From Candidatus Eisenbacteria bacterium (GTDB taxonomy: Bacteria; Eisenbacteria; RBG-16-71-46; SZUA-252): DNA of 64,000 bases. Position 1 is the first letter of the stretch, and every line of letters begins with the position of its first letter. The DNA lies in contig VBOW01000042.1 in the NCBI GenBank assembly GCA_005893275.1, positions 1 to 64,000 on the forward strand, in the 5' to 3' direction. A model generated the notes under the pieces. The model had not been told where the DNA came from. It worked only from the letters and a program-made list of their open reading frames with translations, and did not search any database. Position numbers and translations under genes: made by a program. This document shows positions 40,010-49,814 of the stretch, one piece after another.

Positions 40010-41242
40010 ATGGAACGCACGATTCTCCACGTCGCGATCGACTCGTTTCCCATCCAAGCGGAGCGGCTCCGCTGCCCGAAGCTCGCGGGCCGCCCGCTCG
40101 CGCTCGTTCCGAGCGAGTCTCCGCGACCGCACGTCATCATGCCCTCGCGCGAGGCGTGCGAGGCGGGGGTCACGCGGGGGACGCCGCTCGTGCTGGCGCG
40201 GCGCCTGTGCCGGGATCTTGTCGCGCTCCCGATCGACCGCGCCTATTACGGCGGGATCGGGGAGTCGATCTTCGGGCGCCTGGCTCCATTCGCGCCCGTT
40301 GTCGAACCCGCGGGCGGACCGGGGAGCGGCTCGTCGGAAAGCGGCCGCTTCTTTCTCGACCTGACCGGGGTCGCGCGCACCCATTCCGAAGCGCGGGACC
40401 GCGCCGCGCGCGCAGGAAGCGACGTGGAATCCTCCTTCGGGCTCCATCCGACCCTCGGCGTGGCGGTGAACAAGCTCGTGAGCCGGGTCGCGGCACAAGT
40501 CGTGGCGCCCGACGGGGATCTCGTCGATGTTTCCGCCGGAAGCGAGGCATCGTTTCTGGCCCCGCTTTCCGTCCACATGCTCCCCGCGGCGCGGGGAGCC
40601 GAGGTGGCGCCACGGCTCGATCTTCTCAGCGTCCGCTTCGTCCGTGAGGTTCAGGCTCTCTCGCCTGCGCATCTGGCACGCGCGTTCGGCAAGGCCGGGC
40701 TTCTTCTCTGGAGGCAGGCGCGCGGCATGGACTCGACGCCCGTGCGGGCGCCCGCGTTTCGTCCTCACGTCACGGCCGAGGAGACGCTCGCGTGTGAGAC
40801 GAACGATCGCCGCGCGCTCGCCGCGCACGCGGCGCGGCTGGCGGCCGAGGTGGGCGCGGGGCTCCGGGCACGCGGCGAAGAGGCTCGGTGGCTCATGCTC
40901 GCGGTGGACTACGCGGACGGCCGGGGCGCCCGGGCGAGGCGGACCTTCGCGCGGCCGCCGCTCGGGAGCGCAGAGCTTCGCGCCGCGGTGGCGGAGCTGC
41001 TCGGGCGCGCTCTCACGCGGCGCGTGAGGGTGCGCAGGCTCAGGCTCGACGCCCGGGGGATCGCGCGCGGGGCGACGCAGCTCCCCCTGTGGGACGTCCA
41101 GCCTGAGGAGGGCCCGGGATCGCGCGCGGCGGCTCTCGAGTCGACGATCGACGGCGCACGCGAGCGTTTCGGAGCAGAGGCGCTCGTTCCCGCCGCTTGG
41201 ATGCTGCATGGCCTCACGATTCGCCCATCTGCACGTTCATAG
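40010..41242 (+). CDS. imuB: ImuB-like Y-family polymerase homologue, probably inactive
   Basis: This 410-residue protein is the scaffold of the mutasome with DnaE2. The Y-family fold is recognisable: first acidic residue Asp11 (HVAIDSF), SREACEAGVTRGTPL, and a thumb/little-finger order. In the block before FLDLTG, the catalytic Asp-Glu pair of active polymerases appears to be Gly-Arg (ESGRFFLDLTG). A beta-clamp motif QLPLW is at residues 357-361. A non-catalytic ImuB that binds the clamp and DnaE2 is the expected role. It starts 23 bp after lexA, and its 3' end overlaps dnaE2 by 35 nt. Confidence 0.82.
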   Translation: MERTILHVAIDSFPIQAERLRCPKLAGRPLALVPSESPRPHVIMPSREACEAGVTRGTPLVLARRLCRDLVALPIDRAYYGGIGESIFGRLAPFAPVVEPAGGPGSGSSESGRFFLDLTGVARTHSEARDRAARAGSDVESSFGLHPTLGVAVNKLVSRVAAQVVAPDGDLVDVSAGSEASFLAPLSVHMLPAARGAEVAPRLDLLSVRFVREVQALSPAHLARAFGKAGLLLWRQARGMDSTPVRAPAFRPHVTAEETLACETNDRRALAAHAARLAAEVGAGLRARGEEARWLMLAVDYADGRGARARRTFARPPLGSAELRAAVAELLGRALTRRVRVRRLRLDARGIARGATQLPLWDVQPEEGPGSRAAALESTIDGARERFGAEALVPAAWMLHGLTIRPSARS

Positions 41243-44219
41243 CCACTACTCGCTCATGCGAGGTGCCGACACGATCGAAGCGCTCGCCCAGGCGGCGCGC
41301 GGGCGCGGCATGGATCGCTTCGCGCTCACCGACACGAACGCGCTCTACGGTTTTGTCTTCTACCGGCAGATCTGCGAGGAGCGGGGCCTCAAGCCGATCG
41401 CGGGTGCCGAGGTCGTATCCGCGTCCGGGGCCACCCCCGATCGCGCGGGGGCGGCGCCCGATCGCGCGGTGCTTCTCGCGCGGGGCCGCGAGGGCTACCG
41501 CTCACTCTGCCGCGTCCTCACCGCGCGGCATCTCGATCCCGATTTCTCGCTCGCCCGGGCGGTCCGCGAGAACGCAGCATCGCTCCTGCTCCTGAGCGGG
41601 CAGCGCAGCCTTCTCTCGGTCTTGCGCGACGCGCTCCCGGTCTACGCGGAGCTCGTCCCGGGACGGGACGACCGCGGGCTCCTCCGCTGGGCCCGCGGCG
41701 AGGGGATCGCGTGCGTCGCGACGAACGACGTCCACTTCGTCCACCGCGAGGGACACCGCCTCCACCACACGCTCCGCGCGATCGCGCGGAACGCGACGCT
41801 CGACCGCGTCCCGCTCGACGACCTCGCCGAGCCCGATCGCACGTTCCTGAGCGCCGAGGAAATGGAGGAGCGGTTTCCCCACGCGCCCGAGGCGATCGAG
41901 AACGCGGGGCGGCTGGCCGAGGAATGCGCGGTCGATTGGTCGATGGGGCGGACCGTTTTCCCGTCCTATCCGCTCGAGCGGGGGGACGCCTTCGAGATCC
42001 TCCGCGCGCGCTGCGAGGCGGGGATCCTGCACCGATACGGGCGCGATCCGGACCCCGCGGTCCGCGCCCGCTTGGACCGAGAGCTCGCGGTCATCGGAGA
42101 CAAGGGTTTCGCGGACTACTTTCTCATCGTGGAAGCGATCACCTCACGCACGCCGCGGATCTGTGGGCGCGGATCGGGCGCCGCGAGCATCGTGGCCTAC
42201 CTCCTGGGCATCACGCACGTCGATCCCGTGCGCCACAACCTCTTCTTCGAGCGCTTCCTCTCGCCGGAGCGCAAGGACCCGCCCGACATCGACGTCGATT
42301 TCGCGTGGGACGAGCGCGATCAGATCCAGCTCGACGTCTTACAGGAAAATGGCGCGCCCGTGCGCGCGGCGATGGTCGCGAACCACGTCGGGTTCCGGTC
42401 GAGAGCCGCGATCCACGAAATCGCGAAGGTCTACGGCCTCCCGGAGGAGGAGATCCGCAACGTGACGAAGCGGCTCAAGCATTTCTGGGGGCTCGAGGAT
42501 CCGATCGAGCGCCTCGACGGCCACCCGCGATTCCGCGACGTGGACTTCGAGCCTCCCTGGCCCGAGATTCTCGCGCAGGCCATCGCGCTGGAGGGCCATC
42601 CGCGCCATCTCTCGGTGCACAGTGGGGGGATCGTGCTCGTGCCCGACTCGCTCGCCGACCACGTCCCGGTCGAGATCGCTCCCAAGGGAGTGCCGATCGT
42701 CCAATGGGAGAAAGACCAGGTCGAAGACTACGGCCTCGTGAAAATGGACCTCCTGGGGAACCGCTCGCTCGCGGTGATCCGCGACGCGCTCTTGGCCGTG
42801 GCCCGCAACACCGGGCGCGAGATCGACGAGCGGACGTGGAACCCGATCGACGATCCCGATACCCGGCGACTCGTCGCGGAGGGGGACACGCTCGGGTGCT
42901 TCTATGCGGAATCCCCCTCGATGCGCCAGCTTCAGCGAAAGGCGGGCGTCGGCGACTTCGACCACCTCGTCATCCATTCCTCCATCATCCGCCCCGCCGC
43001 GAACCGCTACATCCGGGAGTACGTGAGGCGGCTCCAAGGGGGCGCCTACGACCCGATCCATCCCGCGCTCCAGCATACGCTCGACGAGACCTACGGCATC
43101 ATGGTGTACCAGGAGGACGTGACCAAGGTCTCCATGGAGATGGCGGGGTTCACGCTCGCCCATGCGGAGGGGTTACGCAAGGCGCTCGGGCACAAGCGGC
43201 CCGTGAAGCCGCTCCGCGCCTATCAGGAGGAGTTCTTCGCGGGCGCTGCCGAGCGGGGCGTCGACCGGCCGGTGGTGGAACAGGTTTGGGAGATGATCCT
43301 GAGCTTCGCCGGCTATTCCTTTTGCAAGCCGCACAGCGCCTCCTACGCGCTCGTGTCGTTTCGCTCGGCGTGGCTCCGCGCGCACTTCCCTGCGGAGTTC
43401 ATGGCCGCGGTGATTTCGAATCAGGGTGGCTACTACTCCACGTTCGCCTACGTCTCCGAAGCACGCCGCATGGGCCTCCGCGTCCTTCCACCCGATGTGA
43501 ACGCGAGCGCGCGCGAGTACACCGGGAGGGGCCGCGAGCTTCGCGTGGGGCTGATGCAGCTCAAAGGATTCCATGCGGAGGCGGCTGGCGCGCTCCTCGG
43601 GGAGCGCGCGCGCGGAGGGCCGTTCGCCTCCTTCGCGGAGCTGAGACGCCGCGTCGCCCTGCACCTTTCGGATGCGGAGCTGCTTGTCAAATCGGGGGCG
43701 TGTGATTCGATCGGGGAGGGGAGGACGCGGCCGGAGCTTCTGTGGGAGCTTTACCTGGGATTGGGGGCGAACGGACGCCCCGGCGCCACGGGCGACCTCT
43801 TCGCGCCCGAGCCGGTGAATGCGCCCCACGCCCAGGCCTACGACCGGGCCACCGTACTCCGGCACGAGGTGGAGACCCTCGGCTTTCTGCTCAGCGCGCA
43901 CCCGCTCGAGCCCTTCGAGCGCGCCCTCAAGACCCGAGGCGTGATCCGCGCCTGCGACCTCTCCCGCCACGCCGGACAGCGCGTCCGGGTCGGAGGTTGG
44001 TTCGTCACATCGAAGCCCGTCCAGACCAAAGACCATGAGCCGATGGAGTTCCTCTCCTTCGAGGACACGACCGCGCTCTACGACGCGACCCTGTTCCCGG
44101 GCGCGTACCGGCGCTTCTGCCACCTGCTGACGGCCTCGCGTCCCTTCGTGCTGGAGGGGCGCGTAGAGGAGGACATGGGGGTGTGCACGCTCGTGGTGGA
44201 GGGGCTGGCGCGCCTCTGA
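41208..44219 (+). CDS. dnaE2: Error-prone DNA polymerase III alpha subunit
   Basis: This translesion polymerase of the C family acts with ImuB. The 1003-residue length fits DnaE2 rather than DnaE1 (about 1160). The PHP domain opens with HLHVHSHYSLMRGADTIE, and the palm aspartates are in DPPDIDVDFAWDERDQI near residue 360. Helix-hairpin-helix and OB-like regions follow (RVRVGGWFVTSKPVQTKDHEPMEF, typical of DnaE2 ends). The ATG lies within the end of imuB. The last gene of the cassette; no imuA is present. Confidence 0.92.
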   Translation: MASRFAHLHVHSHYSLMRGADTIEALAQAARGRGMDRFALTDTNALYGFVFYRQICEERGLKPIAGAEVVSASGATPDRAGAAPDRAVLLARGREGYRSLCRVLTARHLDPDFSLARAVRENAASLLLLSGQRSLLSVLRDALPVYAELVPGRDDRGLLRWARGEGIACVATNDVHFVHREGHRLHHTLRAIARNATLDRVPLDDLAEPDRTFLSAEEMEERFPHAPEAIENAGRLAEECAVDWSMGRTVFPSYPLERGDAFEILRARCEAGILHRYGRDPDPAVRARLDRELAVIGDKGFADYFLIVEAITSRTPRICGRGSGAASIVAYLLGITHVDPVRHNLFFERFLSPERKDPPDIDVDFAWDERDQIQLDVLQENGAPVRAAMVANHVGFRSRAAIHEIAKVYGLPEEEIRNVTKRLKHFWGLEDPIERLDGHPRFRDVDFEPPWPEILAQAIALEGHPRHLSVHSGGIVLVPDSLADHVPVEIAPKGVPIVQWEKDQVEDYGLVKMDLLGNRSLAVIRDALLAVARNTGREIDERTWNPIDDPDTRRLVAEGDTLGCFYAESPSMRQLQRKAGVGDFDHLVIHSSIIRPAANRYIREYVRRLQGGAYDPIHPALQHTLDETYGIMVYQEDVTKVSMEMAGFTLAHAEGLRKALGHKRPVKPLRAYQEEFFAGAAERGVDRPVVEQVWEMILSFAGYSFCKPHSASYALVSFRSAWLRAHFPAEFMAAVISNQGGYYSTFAYVSEARRMGLRVLPPDVNASAREYTGRGRELRVGLMQLKGFHAEAAGALLGERARGGPFASFAELRRRVALHLSDAELLVKSGACDSIGEGRTRPELLWELYLGLGANGRPGATGDLFAPEPVNAPHAQAYDRATVLRHEVETLGFLLSAHPLEPFERALKTRGVIRACDLSRHAGQRVRVGGWFVTSKPVQTKDHEPMEFLSFEDTTALYDATLFPGAYRRFCHLLTASRPFVLEGRVEEDMGVCTLVVEGLARL

Positions 44220-44223
44220 GATC

Positions 44224-44245
44224 GGTCAACCTTATTGGGTTGACC
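44224..44245. promoter_or_regulatory. Inverted repeat IR1 upstream of the SatD-like gene
   Basis: GGTCAACC (44224-44231), 6-nt spacer, GGTTGACC (44238-44245): a perfect 8-bp dyad. It starts 4 nt after the dnaE2 stop and shares its half-site with IR2, so it looks like one of a pair of operators. It could also act as a 3'-end hairpin for dnaE2, but no T-run follows. Confidence 0.6.
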
Positions 44246-44285
44246 TTCAATGAGTCAATCTATATTGGGATTGTAACCGCATAAG

Positions 44286-44313
44286 TTATTGTTGTTTATT
44301 GCATTAATAATAC
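44286..44313 (+). promoter_or_regulatory. Candidate promoter of the SatD-like operon
   Basis: TTATTG (44286-44291), 16-bp spacer, TAATAC (44308-44313), in an AT-rich strip of about 32% G+C. It lies between IR1 and IR2, so regulator binding at the repeats could control it. Confidence 0.4.
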
Positions 44314-44323
44314 AACAAAAAAA

Positions 44324-44346
44324 GGTTGACTACCAATAAGTCAACC
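44324..44346. promoter_or_regulatory. Inverted repeat IR2 at the SatD-like gene start
   Basis: GGTTGACT (44324-44331), 7-nt spacer, AGTCAACC (44339-44346), ending 4 nt before the ATG at 44351. It has the same GGTTGAC core as IR1. A degenerate half-site AGTCAATC lies at 44253-44260. Confidence 0.6.
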
Positions 44347-44350
44347 TATT

Positions 44351-45019
44351 ATGGTTGTACATATGCCGACTCTCTATGTAGGGGTCATTGGCGACATCGT
44401 TAGATCACGGCAGATCGCGCCGCACGCGCGGAGCGCTCTTCAGCGTCGAATAGGGCGAACTCTCCAGCAGATAAACAGCCACTTTGCCCTTTCGCTCGCG
44501 GCGAAGTTTCTGATAACGATCGGGGATGAGTTTCAAGGTCTCCTTCGAGACCCCGTCGCTATACCCGACCTCGTTCGGGAGCTGGAGATGAATCTACCGA
44601 ATACAAGTCTAAGGCTCGGAATTGGCCGGGGAGCTCTCTACACAGACCTTGGGGAGTACGCGATCGGCATGGATGGCCCCGCTTGGTATGCAGCGAGGGG
44701 AGCCCTGGAGGACGCGAGGGCCAGCCGCCGCTTTGGGGGTGTGTTCGTTGGCTTCGGCCCAAAAGAGGACCAGGTACTAAACGGTATGGCCCGAGTGCTC
44801 CACCACGTTCGCTCACGATTGACGATGAAGCAGCGTGAATTGCTCGAGGCATTGCTTCAGGATGAAACGCAAGCGGAGATCGCGACACGTGAAGGTATCA
44901 GTAAGCAGGCCGTGAGCAAGCGGGCTCGAGCCGGAGGCCTCGAAGCATACAGGGAGGCCGAGGCCGCCTGGAAGTTGGTCCTGGCTGCCACCAAGCAGCG
45001 TTCCCCCTCCCAGGAATGA
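44351..45019 (+). CDS. SatD-family protein with C-terminal helix-turn-helix
   Basis: This 222-residue protein has SatD-family blocks: YVGVIGDIVRS at the N-terminus (Asp15), TIGDEFQGLL (57-65), LRLGIGRGALYT (88-99) and IGMDGPAWYAARGAL (105-119). The C-terminus holds a helix-turn-helix (TQAEIATREGISKQAVSKRA, about 173-192). The first four blocks resemble, in order and spacing, the metal-Asp, GDxxxx, GIxxG and AAR elements of class III nucleotide cyclases; this resemblance is my inference. SatD is known from the sat (acid tolerance) operon of streptococci beside the membrane protein SatE. An alternative ATG lies at 44363. The codons look less G+C-rich than neighbours. Confidence 0.72.
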   Translation: MVVHMPTLYVGVIGDIVRSRQIAPHARSALQRRIGRTLQQINSHFALSLAAKFLITIGDEFQGLLRDPVAIPDLVRELEMNLPNTSLRLGIGRGALYTDLGEYAIGMDGPAWYAARGALEDARASRRFGGVFVGFGPKEDQVLNGMARVLHHVRSRLTMKQRELLEALLQDETQAEIATREGISKQAVSKRARAGGLEAYREAEAAWKLVLAATKQRSPSQE

Positions 45020-45840
45020 CTCCAGATCCGATCTGGCCGGCAGGCCCAACGGAGCTGACGCTTTGGGCGCAGCTCATTTCGGTATGGATCATCGCAAGCT
45101 ACGCTATCGCGCCGAACTGCGTGCCCGAGCGGGGGAGGATCGAGGGGCCAGCTCAAAAGATAGCCAAGTTGCTGGCCGCCAGCGCCTTCGCGGGCTGCCT
45201 CGGGTGGCTGCTCCCGCCTGCCGGAACAGATGCTCGTGCACGCGTGCTGCTTCTTGTCGCGTTTGCCGTTTTCGTTCTTGGCACAGGATTGATACGTCAA
45301 AGGCTGATGAGCGTTCGCGGCGGCGACGGCTTCCTGGCGGAGCTTGAGATAGGAGCCAACGTTGGTCTGCTAGCGGTCAGCGCCCTGGTTATCGGTTTCG
45401 GTGGGACCGGTTGGACAGCCACGGAAACCGTTGTGCAATCAGGCAAGGTCACGGCGATCGTTTGCGTAATCGCCGTGGTCGTGGCCGTTTTCAGGTTCGG
45501 TACATATGTTGTCCGCGGCGTCCTCAATAAGACCGGTGCAATCCCGCCGCGCGAACCCGAAGGTGGCTCGGGGTCCCTCCCGAGCACGACCGAGCTCAGC
45601 CGGGGGCGCAGCATTGGGAATTTGGAACGATTGCTGATGATCGTGGCGATCGTTGTCGGCCGTTATGAAGTGCTCGGATTCCTGGTTGCTGCCAAAGGTC
45701 TCATTCGTTCTCGTGAGTTTGAAAACAGAGCCTTCGCCGAGTACTTCATCTTGGGGACCCTCGCAAGCACAACCGTGGCGCTCGTGGTTGGGATCGCGCT
45801 CAGGGTAAGTGTCCGGTATTTCTGGGGCCTGGAAGGGTAG
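45016..45840 (+). CDS. Polytopic membrane protein paired with SatD
   Basis: This 274-residue protein starts at an ATG in an ATGA overlap with the SatD-like stop, with AGGA upstream. It has about six to seven hydrophobic spans. The C-terminal part (IGNLERLLMIVAIVVGRYEVLGFLV, then an Ala-Lys-Gly-Leu-Ile-Arg segment and AEYFILGTLASTTVAL) matches the end of membrane proteins that accompany SatD in other bacteria (DUF3307/SatE-like). The N-terminal half is not obviously DUF3307. No enzymatic motif is visible. Obligate pairing suggests a partner or effector for SatD. Confidence 0.65.
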   Translation: MTPDPIWPAGPTELTLWAQLISVWIIASYAIAPNCVPERGRIEGPAQKIAKLLAASAFAGCLGWLLPPAGTDARARVLLLVAFAVFVLGTGLIRQRLMSVRGGDGFLAELEIGANVGLLAVSALVIGFGGTGWTATETVVQSGKVTAIVCVIAVVVAVFRFGTYVVRGVLNKTGAIPPREPEGGSGSLPSTTELSRGRSIGNLERLLMIVAIVVGRYEVLGFLVAAKGLIRSREFENRAFAEYFILGTLASTTVALVVGIALRVSVRYFWGLEG

Positions 45841-45918: not shown

Positions 45919-47301
45919 CTACTTGCCCATGACCTTCCAAATTCGCTCCCACCAAGTCGCCGTTTCGTACGCCGTAGACCAATCCGCGGCGGCCCCCATT
46001 CGGTCGCGAACGTCGTCGATCCGAGCACCCGTGAGATCGCAGTAGTTTTCCGCTTCCTTCTTGCGGCGTCCCCAGACGGTTCGGTTGTATGCGGCCATCT
46101 GTGGGCACTCGTCGGTTCCTCGATACGGATGGTGGATCACGTAGCGCGCCTGCCAGTTTTCCCGGTCGGCGGTCACCTGAAACTGGAGATCTTCCGGGAA
46201 GTGCCCGGCGTCGTATCGCAGGTGGAGCCTCGTCAGGACCGCCTGCCCGGGATCCGGTGTGGTCGTCGAAATCCAAAACGCTCCCAGCGATCGTAGCTCC
46301 TCCGCGGTGAGATAAGGGGCGGTGCATGGATCGCATGAAGGGGCGTTCGGGGCGACGTTCCAGCAGTATTCGAGAAACACTGCCTTTCCGCCCTCACGCT
46401 CGTGCTGCTTATTGAAGAGCTTGCGGTAGAAGTCCGGAAAGTCGGGCTTCACGAACTCGGGCACGTCGCTTCCGGTCGGCAAACGGACCGTGCGGTAGTT
46501 GGTGGTCTCCATTCGTCCGGCTCGTGTGAGCGTGAACACGAACATCTCTTGCGATCCTTGCGCGTTCACCATCCCGAGGCGCAGCGGCAGCATGAGCTTC
46601 GGGGATTCGTACGCCACCTGGATGGGGCGCAGGTAGGTGTAGCCGAGCCGTTTCTGCTCTCCCAAGTCCACCTTGGCCACGAAGAAGAACATGCCCTGCC
46701 TGATGTAGCTCCGGAGGGCCCGTGAAGCGCCCTCCGGAATCTGATAGCCATTCTGATGCAACCAACGCTCGAGCGCGCGTCCCTCGTCGGCAGACAAGAT
46801 GAGGATGTCGTACTCGTCGACCTTGTAGCGGGCTTCAACCCGGACGTCGCCCAATGCATTCATAGCCATGACCTGCATCGTCGAGGAATCCTTCCTTCTG
46901 ATGAGAGACTGGGCCCCGCCTCTCATGCGCAGTTCCTCCGGACACGGATTCGGATCCCAGTACTCCACCAGCCTCGGCACGGAATACGCGTCCAGGTGAT
47001 CCACCCAGCCGTTCTCCCCCACGTGGACCTGCTCCTTCTTGAGCACGACCGGCACCGGGATGACCACCGCGAACTCCTTGGGATCCCCCTTGAAGTCGCT
47101 CGCCATGGTGAGGACGGTCCGGTTCCCGTCGCGCACGAGCACGACTTTGGACGATTGGTTGTAGAGCTTGGCATCGCCCTGGGCGACGTAGAAACCGCAG
47201 AAGGCGAGGGCGCCTGGAGCGGCGGCCAGGAGCGGCAGAAGAAGGAAGGGGACCCCGGCCAGGGTTGGGCGGATTCGATCCGCGAGATAGGTCCGATTCA
47301 T
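45919..47301 (-). CDS. Exported DUF2330-family protein (paralogue 1)
   Basis: It has 460 residues from an ATG at 47301 with GGAGG about 8-12 nt upstream; an earlier in-frame start at 47343 is less likely. A signal peptide (to about residue 34) ends before FCGFYVAQGDAKLYNQSSKVV, the opening block of DUF2330. VIPVPVVLKKEQVHVG, RLVEYWDPNPC, YDILILSADEGRALERWL and TNYRTVRLPTG follow. Several cysteines (including a CDPC pair) suggest disulfides in the periplasm. DUF2330 has no known function. It is highly similar along its length to the next gene, so the two arose by duplication. Confidence 0.8.
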   Translation of the reverse strand: MNRTYLADRIRPTLAGVPFLLLPLLAAAPGALAFCGFYVAQGDAKLYNQSSKVVLVRDGNRTVLTMASDFKGDPKEFAVVIPVPVVLKKEQVHVGENGWVDHLDAYSVPRLVEYWDPNPCPEELRMRGGAQSLIRRKDSSTMQVMAMNALGDVRVEARYKVDEYDILILSADEGRALERWLHQNGYQIPEGASRALRSYIRQGMFFFVAKVDLGEQKRLGYTYLRPIQVAYESPKLMLPLRLGMVNAQGSQEMFVFTLTRAGRMETTNYRTVRLPTGSDVPEFVKPDFPDFYRKLFNKQHEREGGKAVFLEYCWNVAPNAPSCDPCTAPYLTAEELRSLGAFWISTTTPDPGQAVLTRLHLRYDAGHFPEDLQFQVTADRENWQARYVIHHPYRGTDECPQMAAYNRTVWGRRKKEAENYCDLTGARIDDVRDRMGAAADWSTAYETATWWERIWKVMGK

Positions 47302-47333
47302 GACACGAGCCTCCGAAATCCAGCGGGTGGAGA

Positions 47334-47365
47334 GGGGGCTCAAGGGAGAGGGGGCTCAAGGGAGA
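47334..47365. repeat. Two perfect copies of a 16-bp tandem repeat
   Basis: GGGGGCTCAAGGGAGA occurs at 47334-47349 and 47350-47365, followed by a partial third unit (GGGGAGAGGGA). It lies in the 168-bp gap between the two DUF2330 genes. Apart from this I see no feature in the gap. Confidence 0.85.
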
Positions 47366-47469
47366 GGGGAGAGGGATGGGGAGGACTGCCGGCCGGCGCC
47401 GTGTGAGCGGAGTCGTCTGCGCCGACTCCCATCACGCTACACCCAGCGCCGGCCAAGTCCAATGTGAAA

Positions 47470-48819
47470 TCAGTTCTTCCACATCTGGTCCCACCAGGGG
47501 AACGGCTTGTCCGGATCATCGGACCAGCCCCCGCCCATCTTTCTCCGGATCGAAGCAATGTCCCACCCGGTGAGCGAGGCCAGGGTCTCGGCCTCCTTCA
47601 CGCGGCGCTCCCGGACGCTCCGGTGATACTCGCGGATGCCGGGGCAGGAGCCTTCCCCCTTCCACGGATGCCGAAGCACGTACCGCGCTTGGAAATTGCT
47701 CTGGTCGGATGTCTCCTGAAAGACCAGGTCCTCCGGGAAATGCCGCGCGTCGTACCGCACGTGAAGGCGGGTGATGAACGTGGTCTGGGGAACCGGCTGG
47801 GGCGGGTTCGAGCCGGACGCGGGCGAGGCGACCCAGAACGTCCCGAGGCTCCGCAGCTCGTCCGCGGAGAGCGGGTCCGCCGCGCAGGGATCACACCAGC
47901 TCATGTTCCAGGCGTACTCGAGGAACACGGCCTCACGATTTTCCTTCTCGACTTGCTGGGTGAACATCGCGCGATAGAAGCGCGGGAAGTCATCCTTCAC
48001 GTACTCCGGTATGTCCATGCCCTCGGGGAGCCGGACGGTGCGGTAGTTGGTCGTCTCGACGCGACCGTTCTTCGTGATCGCGAAGACGAAGAGCTCCTGC
48101 GGCCCATCCGCGTTCGCCATACCGAGCCTGAGCGGGAGCATGAACTTCGCCGATTCGTATGCGACCTGGATCGGGCGCAGGTAGGAGAAGCCCAGCCGCT
48201 TCTGTTCGCCCAGGTTCACCTTCGCGACGAAAAATTTCATGCCCTGGCGGAGGTAGCTCCCGAGGACGCGCCGGGCGCCGGGCGGGACGGAGTAGCCGTT
48301 CTCCAGGAGCCATGTCTCGAGCCCGCCGCTTTGCTTCGCGGAGAGGATCAAGATGTCGTATTCGCCGACCGTGTAGCGGGCTTCGATCCGGACTCCGAGC
48401 GATCGTTCGCGCGCGGAGTTCATCGCGTCGGCGGCCTTCCGCGCCATCCCCTGCGCCATGGGCGCGGACTCCAGCGCTTCGTACCGCATGCAAGGGTCTG
48501 GATCGAAATACTCGACCAGACGCGGGGCCGAGTAGGCGTCGAGGTGCTCCAGGACCGCCCGATCGCCCACGTGGATCTGACCCCGGGCAAGGACGGTCGG
48601 TACGGGAACCACGATCGCGAACTCCGACGGCTCCCCGCTGTAGTCGTTGGCCATGGTGAGCACGGTCCGATCTCCGTCCCGCACCATGACGACCTTTGAG
48701 GCGTGGTTGAAGAGCTTCGCGTTCCCCTGCGCGACATAGAAGCCGCAGAAACTATGCCCCGGTTGGGCCCAGAGCAGGGCGATCCAAAGCAGGCTGCCGG
48801 AGAGAAGAAGGCGCTTCAT
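47470..48819 (-). CDS. Exported DUF2330-family protein (paralogue 2)
   Basis: It has 449 residues from an ATG at 48819 with AAGGAG 6 nt upstream. A signal peptide covers residues 1-22, then FCGFYVAQGNAKLFNHASKVV, VVPVPTVLARGQIHVG, RLVEYFDPDPC, YDILILSAKQSGGLETWL and TNYRTVRLPEG. Nearly every block has a counterpart in the gene at 45919. The gene start lies inside the last 68 nt of the RnfD-like gene on the same strand, an unusually long overlap that suggests coupled expression. Confidence 0.8.
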   Translation of the reverse strand: MKRLLLSGSLLWIALLWAQPGHSFCGFYVAQGNAKLFNHASKVVMVRDGDRTVLTMANDYSGEPSEFAIVVPVPTVLARGQIHVGDRAVLEHLDAYSAPRLVEYFDPDPCMRYEALESAPMAQGMARKAADAMNSARERSLGVRIEARYTVGEYDILILSAKQSGGLETWLLENGYSVPPGARRVLGSYLRQGMKFFVAKVNLGEQKRLGFSYLRPIQVAYESAKFMLPLRLGMANADGPQELFVFAITKNGRVETTNYRTVRLPEGMDIPEYVKDDFPRFYRAMFTQQVEKENREAVFLEYAWNMSWCDPCAADPLSADELRSLGTFWVASPASGSNPPQPVPQTTFITRLHVRYDARHFPEDLVFQETSDQSNFQARYVLRHPWKGEGSCPGIREYHRSVRERRVKEAETLASLTGWDIASIRRKMGGGWSDDPDKPFPWWDQMWKN

Positions 48820-49657
48820 CGAGTACTCCTTCGGGTTGGGGTTTCGAACGCACACGATTCCATTCGTATCGTGGTCCGGGCAAGAGCCGATCGATGAGAG
48901 GCACGGCCATCGACCAGAGCGCGAGGGACCACAGGATTCCATTCGTGCGGTACAGGCCGAACTGGATGAAGCCGGCGAAGGCCGTGACGAGAACCGCGAA
49001 GAGGATCCTCCCGGCGCGCGAGTTCGGCGTGGTCTTGGGATCGGAGATCATGAAGAAGGCGAAGAGGAGCAGCGCCCCGCTCTCCAGCCGATGGATGGGC
49101 ACCTCCCACCGCTGCATGGCCCAGAACGCGCGGCCGAACTGGAGGGCCGCGAAGGAAATCAGAAACGCGTACGTCACGTCGCTGCGGGCGGCCCGGTTCA
49201 CGACGAGGCCGCCGAGACAGGCCATCAGAAATCCAAAGTAGGCGACGCTGCCCCACTGCCCCGGTGAAACCCAGATGGGTGCGCCCAGGAGCATCAGGAA
49301 CACGAGCCCGATATTCGTCGGGTTGAAGATGTGCTTGCCCTTCCATCGGACCAGGAACTTGCTCGCGATCGTCACGACGGCGGCCAGGATGGCCAGCGCC
49401 GCGAAGTTCGTGCGCAGGAGGAGGCAAAGCGAGAGCCCCGAGATGAGGGCGCTCTTGGGGTCGAACTTCGGGAGCCGCCAGAGCTTGGTGCACACGTACT
49501 GTGTCAGGAGGGCGGTCGAAAGGAGGAGGGCGGCGCGGCCGGGCGTGATGTCGAAATGGAGCCAGCCCAGGCCGTAAATCAAGAGGCCGGACAGGACGGT
49601 GATCTGGTAAATCCTTGGATCGAGGGGGGGCCTGGGTCTTGAGGAATCAGCACGCAT
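48752..49657 (-). CDS. RnfD/NqrB-like integral membrane protein
   Basis: It has 301 residues from an ATG at 49657 with AGGAGAGG 4 nt upstream. There are about eight hydrophobic spans and the family blocks DPRIYQITVLSGLL, FDPKSALISGLSLCLLLRT, KHIFNPTNIGLVFLMLLG, WVSPGQWGS and FFMISDPKTTPNSRAGRI. These resemble subunit D of Rnf/Nqr complexes and UnbU-type proteins. No other rnf or nqr gene is present, so a stand-alone membrane protein is likely, with unknown electron or flavin role. The Ser-Asp-Pro-Lys-Thr-Thr-Pro region corresponds to the conserved, flavin-proximal segment of the family. Confidence 0.72.
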   Translation of the reverse strand: MRADSSRPRPPLDPRIYQITVLSGLLIYGLGWLHFDITPGRAALLLSTALLTQYVCTKLWRLPKFDPKSALISGLSLCLLLRTNFAALAILAAVVTIASKFLVRWKGKHIFNPTNIGLVFLMLLGAPIWVSPGQWGSVAYFGFLMACLGGLVVNRAARSDVTYAFLISFAALQFGRAFWAMQRWEVPIHRLESGALLLFAFFMISDPKTTPNSRAGRILFAVLVTAFAGFIQFGLYRTNGILWSLALWSMAVPLIDRLLPGPRYEWNRVRSKPQPEGVLDEAPSSLRQPALDRPALGPTGA

Positions 49658-49814
49658 GGTGCCTCTCCTACGCCCGGCCCGGCGGGTGTATTCCAAGGAT
49701 CCTACTTGGCCGGCGTTGACCGCAAGGGCAAATTCGGGGAGACTCGCCGCGTGGCACCGGTTAGGAGCTACCCTGACCTGGCTCGGCACCCAACCGATCA
49801 GCCGAGGAGAAGAG

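Follow-up and report, generated by a model that had tools for sequence, protein, structure and literature searches.

The sat operon of Streptococcus mutans comprises satC-satD-satE together with ylxM-ffh, and its sat genes have been tied to acid tolerance and to ffh, as cited in PMC12077213. In S. pyogenes, satD is present in 178 of 249 genomes, is essential in the Tn-seq strains tested and is the only accessory gene of the species that scores essential by Tn-seq (PMC11323703). For two decades the name SatD has stood for no function, with acid tolerance or virulence copied from one annotation to the next, and the literature that we searched gives no function for SatD or for DUF3307. The placement of SatD in the cyclase superfamily, its helix-turn-helix (HTH) and its near-obligatory membrane partner lead to a specific, testable mechanism: we give an even chance to the reading that SatD is a repressor which regulates its own expression, binds metal and nucleotide and holds a membrane effector in check.

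The satD-partner pair studied here is an isolated two-gene unit in the window (the whole stretch of 64,000 nucleotides that was analyzed, from contig 42 of a 2.88 Mb genome). The satD reading frame runs from 44351 to 45019 on the forward strand (222 aa), and alignment favors the in-frame ATG at 44363 as its start; SatD residue numbers count from there, and Asp15, Asp59 and Arg116 of an earlier note on this DNA are D11, D55 and R112. Against PF16264 the protein scores 110 bits (gathering cut-off 29) and covers profile positions 1-209 of 211. As that note had seen, the membrane protein is joined to satD by ATGA, with its start codon inside the satD stop codon. The G+C content is 0.47 across the promoter and the start of satD versus 0.66-0.71 in the upstream gene, among 47 genomes from the phylum only 4 have SatD, three further genomes from the genus have none, and plasmid copies exist in haloarchaea, Arthrobacter and Sphingomonas. 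The low G+C, the sporadic occurrence and the plasmid copies together point to a mobile module. Immediately 5' of the satD promoter (40010-44219, forward strand) a Y-family polymerase-like gene with IMS domains overlaps a gene for a DnaE-type alpha subunit, a pair that can be likened to the ImuB-DnaE2 mutagenesis cassette. On the strand opposite satD, two DUF2330 genes stand in tandem (45919-48942) and are followed by an NQR2/RnfD-type gene (48752-49789).

Table 1. Features of the satD locus, in positions of the window unless residues are given.
Feature	Position	Strand	Basis
Probable operator A, palindrome GGTCAACC-N6-GGTTGACC	44224..44245		perfect 8-6-8 inverted repeat
Probable operator B, imperfect copy GTCAATC-N7-GGATTGTAAC	44254..44277		by inspection; direct repeat family D1
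Probable operator C, palindrome AGGTTGACT-N7-AGTCAACCT	44323..44347		perfect 9-7-9 arms; direct repeat family D1
Probable operator D, GTCAACC-N6-GGTTGTA	44340..44359		2 mismatches to consensus; overlaps first ATG
satD	44363..45019 (alternative ATG 44351)	+	PF16264 E=1.5e-31; AlphaFold2 pLDDT 95.7; Foldseek to class III cyclases
satD domains	residues ~1-150 class III cyclase-like; ~152-200 C-terminal HTH	+	HTH: Sigma70_r4-type matches
D11 codon, putative first metal Asp (DIVRS; cognate of cyclase DIxGS)	44393..44395	+	80/80 in A3; aligned to cyclase Asp
D55 codon, putative second metal Asp (TIGDEFQ)	44525..44527	+	conservation and cyclase alignment
R112 codon (AAR; positional cognate of class III cyclase transition-state Arg)	44696..44698	+	80/80 in A3
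Membrane partner	45016..45840	+	274 aa, ~6-7 TM helices; ATGA overlap with satD
Conserved C-terminal partner domain (GxxIGxLER...AAKxxxR...EYxLxGTLxS)	45589..45837	+	residues ~192-274

An AlphaFold2 model of SatD, built from an 80-sequence alignment (A3), reached a mean pLDDT of 95.7 and a pTM of 0.90. It follows the b-a-b-b-a-b-a order of the cyclase/GGDEF palm and then continues into a helical HTH part. In a Foldseek search of the PDB, the 12 best matches were all class III adenylyl/guanylyl cyclases (E 5.5e-5 to 3.4e-4, prob 1.00, TM-score by target 0.50-0.57), led by Ma1120, Rv1900c and a eukaryotic guanylate cyclase, each at prob 1.00; Cas10/Cmr2, PleD and the Pycsar cUMP synthase 7r65 (E=3e-3) came after them. 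With hhalign, an enlarged SatD alignment matched an alignment built from class III cyclases of the same phylum at 83.8% (E=7.9e-6); among the controls, the accepted relation between cyclase and GGDEF reached 69% when these small alignments were used, and reversed or unrelated ones stayed below 1%. The register equates D11 with the Asp of DI, GDEF with GDA and RLGIG with RVGI of the cyclases. The SatD sequence had no significant match in the PDB, and the PF00211 profile of class III cyclases did not match the window SatD. Model and fold search place a cyclase palm in SatD, which on its predicted structure is a divergent, not a close, relative, because the TM-scores by target exceed 0.5 only modestly.

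Because A3 had been retrieved with a TxGDEFQ pattern, which biases conservation at residues 52-58, its invariant positions (D11, S15, R23, Q27, T52, G54-D55-E56-F57-Q58, G88, G90, T94, D104, G105 and R112) were supplemented by a second sample, collected with the Pfam model alone and no motif from the classes or phyla of several relatives, bacterial and archaeal. D11 and D55 are nearly universal in this sample too, and are kept even in distant relatives from Vibrio, Salinivibrio and Segatella. Conserved and in register, they appear to reproduce the two metal aspartates of a class III cyclase. Position R-4, Asn in cyclases, is Y, F, L or W in the SatD family, and the Lys of the cyclase K-T-I-G-D is replaced by I, V, L or M in 80 of 80 SatDs. 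R112 is replaced in several lineages, including partner-bearing ones; the family as a whole does not hold the transition-state Asn and Arg of class III cyclases, the Arg being present in the window. Since Asn and Lys are replaced family-wide and R112 in several lineages, the metal pair, not the full cyclization machinery, is by these alignments the common denominator of the family. An early impression that SatDs without R112 have no partner was wrong: the partner lies upstream in loci L196, L206 and L208-L211 and on the opposite strand in L181, and no association was found between R112 and partner presence. In L163, L164 and L207 the Asp seems to be lost, but these ORFs are cut or split, and the three loci were left out of the counts.

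The earlier note had recognized a cyclase-like order of motifs in SatD (VIGDI, TIGDEFQG, RLGIGRGAL and IGMDGPAWYAARGAL) and a C-terminal HTH. All four motifs are in the reading frame, Foldseek and hhalign argue against a chance resemblance, and the HTH has both Sigma70_r4-type matches and a helical counterpart in the model. The note had named two outcomes that would speak against it, a fold unrelated to cyclases and non-conservation of the two aspartates; adenylyl/guanylyl cyclases are the best PDB matches, and D11 and D55 are near-invariant. It had asked whether the Arg of AAR is invariant as well, which does not hold across lineages, and its own doubts about the transition-state Asn and the substrate Lys were well placed. 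What remains of its nucleotide-signaling reading is the cyclase fold, the metal aspartates, the membrane coupling and the HTH, while the missing Asn and Lys and the loss of R112 in several partner-bearing lineages count against the enzymatic part.

In a sample not selected by motif, the partner is adjacent in 79 of 82 SatDs that have both aspartates and known flanks, versus 0 of 10 Asp-lost SatDs (Fisher 4e-11, uncorrected for kinship). In a tree from which the active-site columns were left out, the 10 Asp-lost loci represent four independent losses; in compared pairs the partner was lost along with the Asp in 3.6 of 4 on average and the opposite direction was never seen. With four independent losses and a sign test of p=0.125, we regard the link between Asp loss and partner absence as suggestive. 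The coupling spans haloarchaea to streptococci, and the partner is near-obligatory for SatD. When the partner was used as a query on plasmids, SatD lay directly upstream in all six new records that were opened, four of which were annotated as hypothetical only. In the motif-selected set the two genes overlap by 4 nt in 24 loci and by 8 nt in 25, and the partners at L041 and L063 are apparently broken.

Several variants of SatD were seen in the survey. The SatD-like proteins of L242-L245 (Sphingomonas, Segatella, Vibrio, Salinivibrio) carry a cyclase-like GD[IL]V.ST and are annotated as hypothetical only. Loci L224-L229 and L234 form a clade of stand-alone SatDs that are without both aspartates, with the HTH match retained in L224; several have a PHP-type gene nearby, and an intact pair is present as well in several of these genomes. 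At L163, L164, L167 and L168 a second, short SatD (133-143 aa, without HTH) sits beside a full SatD-partner pair, on the opposite strand, where it meets the partner gene end to end; a heterodimer or dominant-negative form is possible. L086 (the gene of L129) and L157 have a SatD with a long C-terminal extension, in frames of 556 and 737 aa, that is TPR-like by eye only in L086.

The membrane partner of the window had no match in Pfam, NCBIfam or PADLOC. A C-terminal membrane domain is common to all partners compared, with G197, G201, E204, R205, K227, R231, Y243, G247 and S251 invariant in the partner alignment (A4), and in L143-145, L166 and L173-175 the partner consists of hardly anything else (~115-165 aa). 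DUF3307-type N-terminal residues are found in about three quarters of 69 partners compared and are absent from the window lineage. PF11750 (DUF3307) matches the N-terminal part of 13 of 21 aligned partners, whereas the window partner has no match and the common C-terminal domain lies outside DUF3307. The idea that DUF3307 forms the partner's functional core was rejected, because the C-terminal domain persists in the window and in several other lineages that are without DUF3307. AlphaFold2 modeled the C-terminal part at ~95 pLDDT, a fold search against the PDB gave no match below E=0.8, and no nucleotide-binding domain was recognizable in the partner, including by match to cyclic-nucleotide-binding domains.

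The sequence 5' of satD (44220-44350) is a promoter with palindromic repeats, which the earlier note did not mention. Probable operator C overlaps a -35-like hexamer, TTGACT, at 44326, and the operator consensus occurs within the window at satD only, besides two weak matches with 3 mismatches. Other lineages have repeated palindromes of their own at the same place (GTCACCC in L015, GGCTAA in L032, GGCGAAC in haloarchaea). Repeated 8-mers, scored at p<=0.05 by shuffling, are significant in 39 of 87 satD upstreams versus 15 of 133 neighboring-gene upstreams (Fisher 2.4e-8), and about half of the satD upstreams have no detectable repeat. Where the half-sites are of the GTTGAC type, the recognition helices are mostly related, such as ISKQAVSK (window) and ISRQAVSK (L012). 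The palindromes vary by lineage yet stay at satD, as an autoregulator predicts, and are likely operators to which SatD would bind. An HTH together with repeated palindromes at its own promoter is what would be expected of a one-component autoregulator.

The mechanism that we propose builds on these features. The N-terminal cyclase-fold domain would bind metal and nucleotide via the two conserved aspartates, and SatD would repress the promoter common to both genes through the repeated palindromes. It would probably also restrain the partner via the nucleotide site, with release when the status of the nucleotide or of the membrane, or the level of SatD, changes, and an unrestrained partner would presumably be harmful. 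The S. pyogenes pattern, in which a gene is absent in some strains and not losable where present, resembles that of a repressor or antitoxin and by this analogy favors restraint by SatD over activation. The proposed mechanism could explain why satD-carrying S. pyogenes strains seem unable to lose the gene; satD, accessory yet lethal to lose where carried, may belong to a membrane switch under nucleotide control. Essentiality in one species could also reflect polarity or gene-clustering artefacts. Viable nonpolar sat mutants of S. mutans were reportedly obtained by Kremer in 2001. Beyond one species, the pair is a candidate nucleotide-controlled membrane system in both prokaryotic domains. It is rather doubtful that a DNA-binding SatD produces or turns over a nucleotide signal and that this signal gates the partner, as an effector of a new class that occurs across both domains and has mostly escaped annotation in Pseudomonadota and Bacteroidota.

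A Pycsar-like arrangement, in which SatD would be an active nucleotidyl cyclase, or a related enzyme that converts NTPs, with a product that opens or activates the partner, and the HTH would only limit expression, accords with the cyclase fold and its metal aspartates, with Asp loss only where the partner is absent, with the presence of 7r65 among the Foldseek matches and with a Sphingomonas insulae plasmid (L242, 1287-5297) on which the SatD-DUF3307 pair adjoins an annotated Pycsar effector and cyclase operon. We consider it unlikely: Asn and Lys are absent family-wide, R112 is lost in several partner-bearing lineages, the partner has neither a recognizable nucleotide-binding domain nor a fold match, and an activating enzyme ought to be lost without harm, whereas satD reportedly scores as essential, which makes this reading less likely. 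The missing Asn and Lys would be explained if SatD were an ordinary one-component repressor whose palm serves only as a scaffold for dimerization or sensing, and if the partner were a housekeeping membrane protein for secretion or for acid or osmotic adaptation. The neighbors of SatD, heterogeneous and mostly of housekeeping type, would fit as well, as would the tie of the S. mutans genes to acid tolerance and ffh. This is quite unlikely in our view, since near-invariance of D11, S15, D55 and GDE across archaea and bacteria is not expected of a scaffold, and Asp and partner vanish together while the HTH match is still present in L224.

Restraint by direct contact is the premise of a strict addiction module, with the partner a membrane toxin and SatD an antitoxin whose contact is tuned by the nucleotide site. 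A mobile, sporadic distribution in the phylum and on plasmids, overlapping genes, autoregulation, essentiality where present and an Agrobacterium plasmid copy that adjoins an antitoxin and an MNT-HEPN gene all agree with it, but typical membrane toxins are much smaller and less well conserved than the partner, and the pair is chromosomal in many Firmicutes, which makes such a module improbable to us. The idea that these pairs sit in defense islands, a survey suggested by the earlier note, was not borne out: among 134 neighboring genes of 38 loci no defense family recurred, PADLOC matches were only scattered and Pfam gave mixed housekeeping genes, the two plasmid copies just named being the ones beside defense-type genes. 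No phage or viral record carrying the pair was found. A defense role of the SatD pair as a rule is unsupported.

SatD and its partner can be compared with several described systems. As a full-length member of PF16264, the window SatD shares domain order and type of downstream partner with streptococcal L068 and L073, whereas the window pair, compared with the S. mutans operon, stands alone behind its own palindromic promoter and its partner lacks the DUF3307 residues that most relatives have. Class III cyclases (PF00211; Ma1120, Rv1900c) have the same fold, motif order (DI...GD...RxGI...R) and metal Asp pair; SatD differs in being without the transition-state Asn and substrate Lys, in an Arg that is not universal and in its HTH. 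Pycsar (PycC and PycTM) likewise combines a cyclase-fold protein with a membrane protein, but SatD has an HTH and probable operators, its loci are generally without a defense-gene neighborhood, and the comparison gave no cyclic-nucleotide-binding part in the partner and no significant PADLOC match. Mycobacterial CHD-LuxR regulators of the Rv0386 type, like SatD, join a cyclase homology domain to a DNA-binding HTH (PMC3466318), whereas SatD is short, has a sigma-4-like HTH and comes with a membrane partner.
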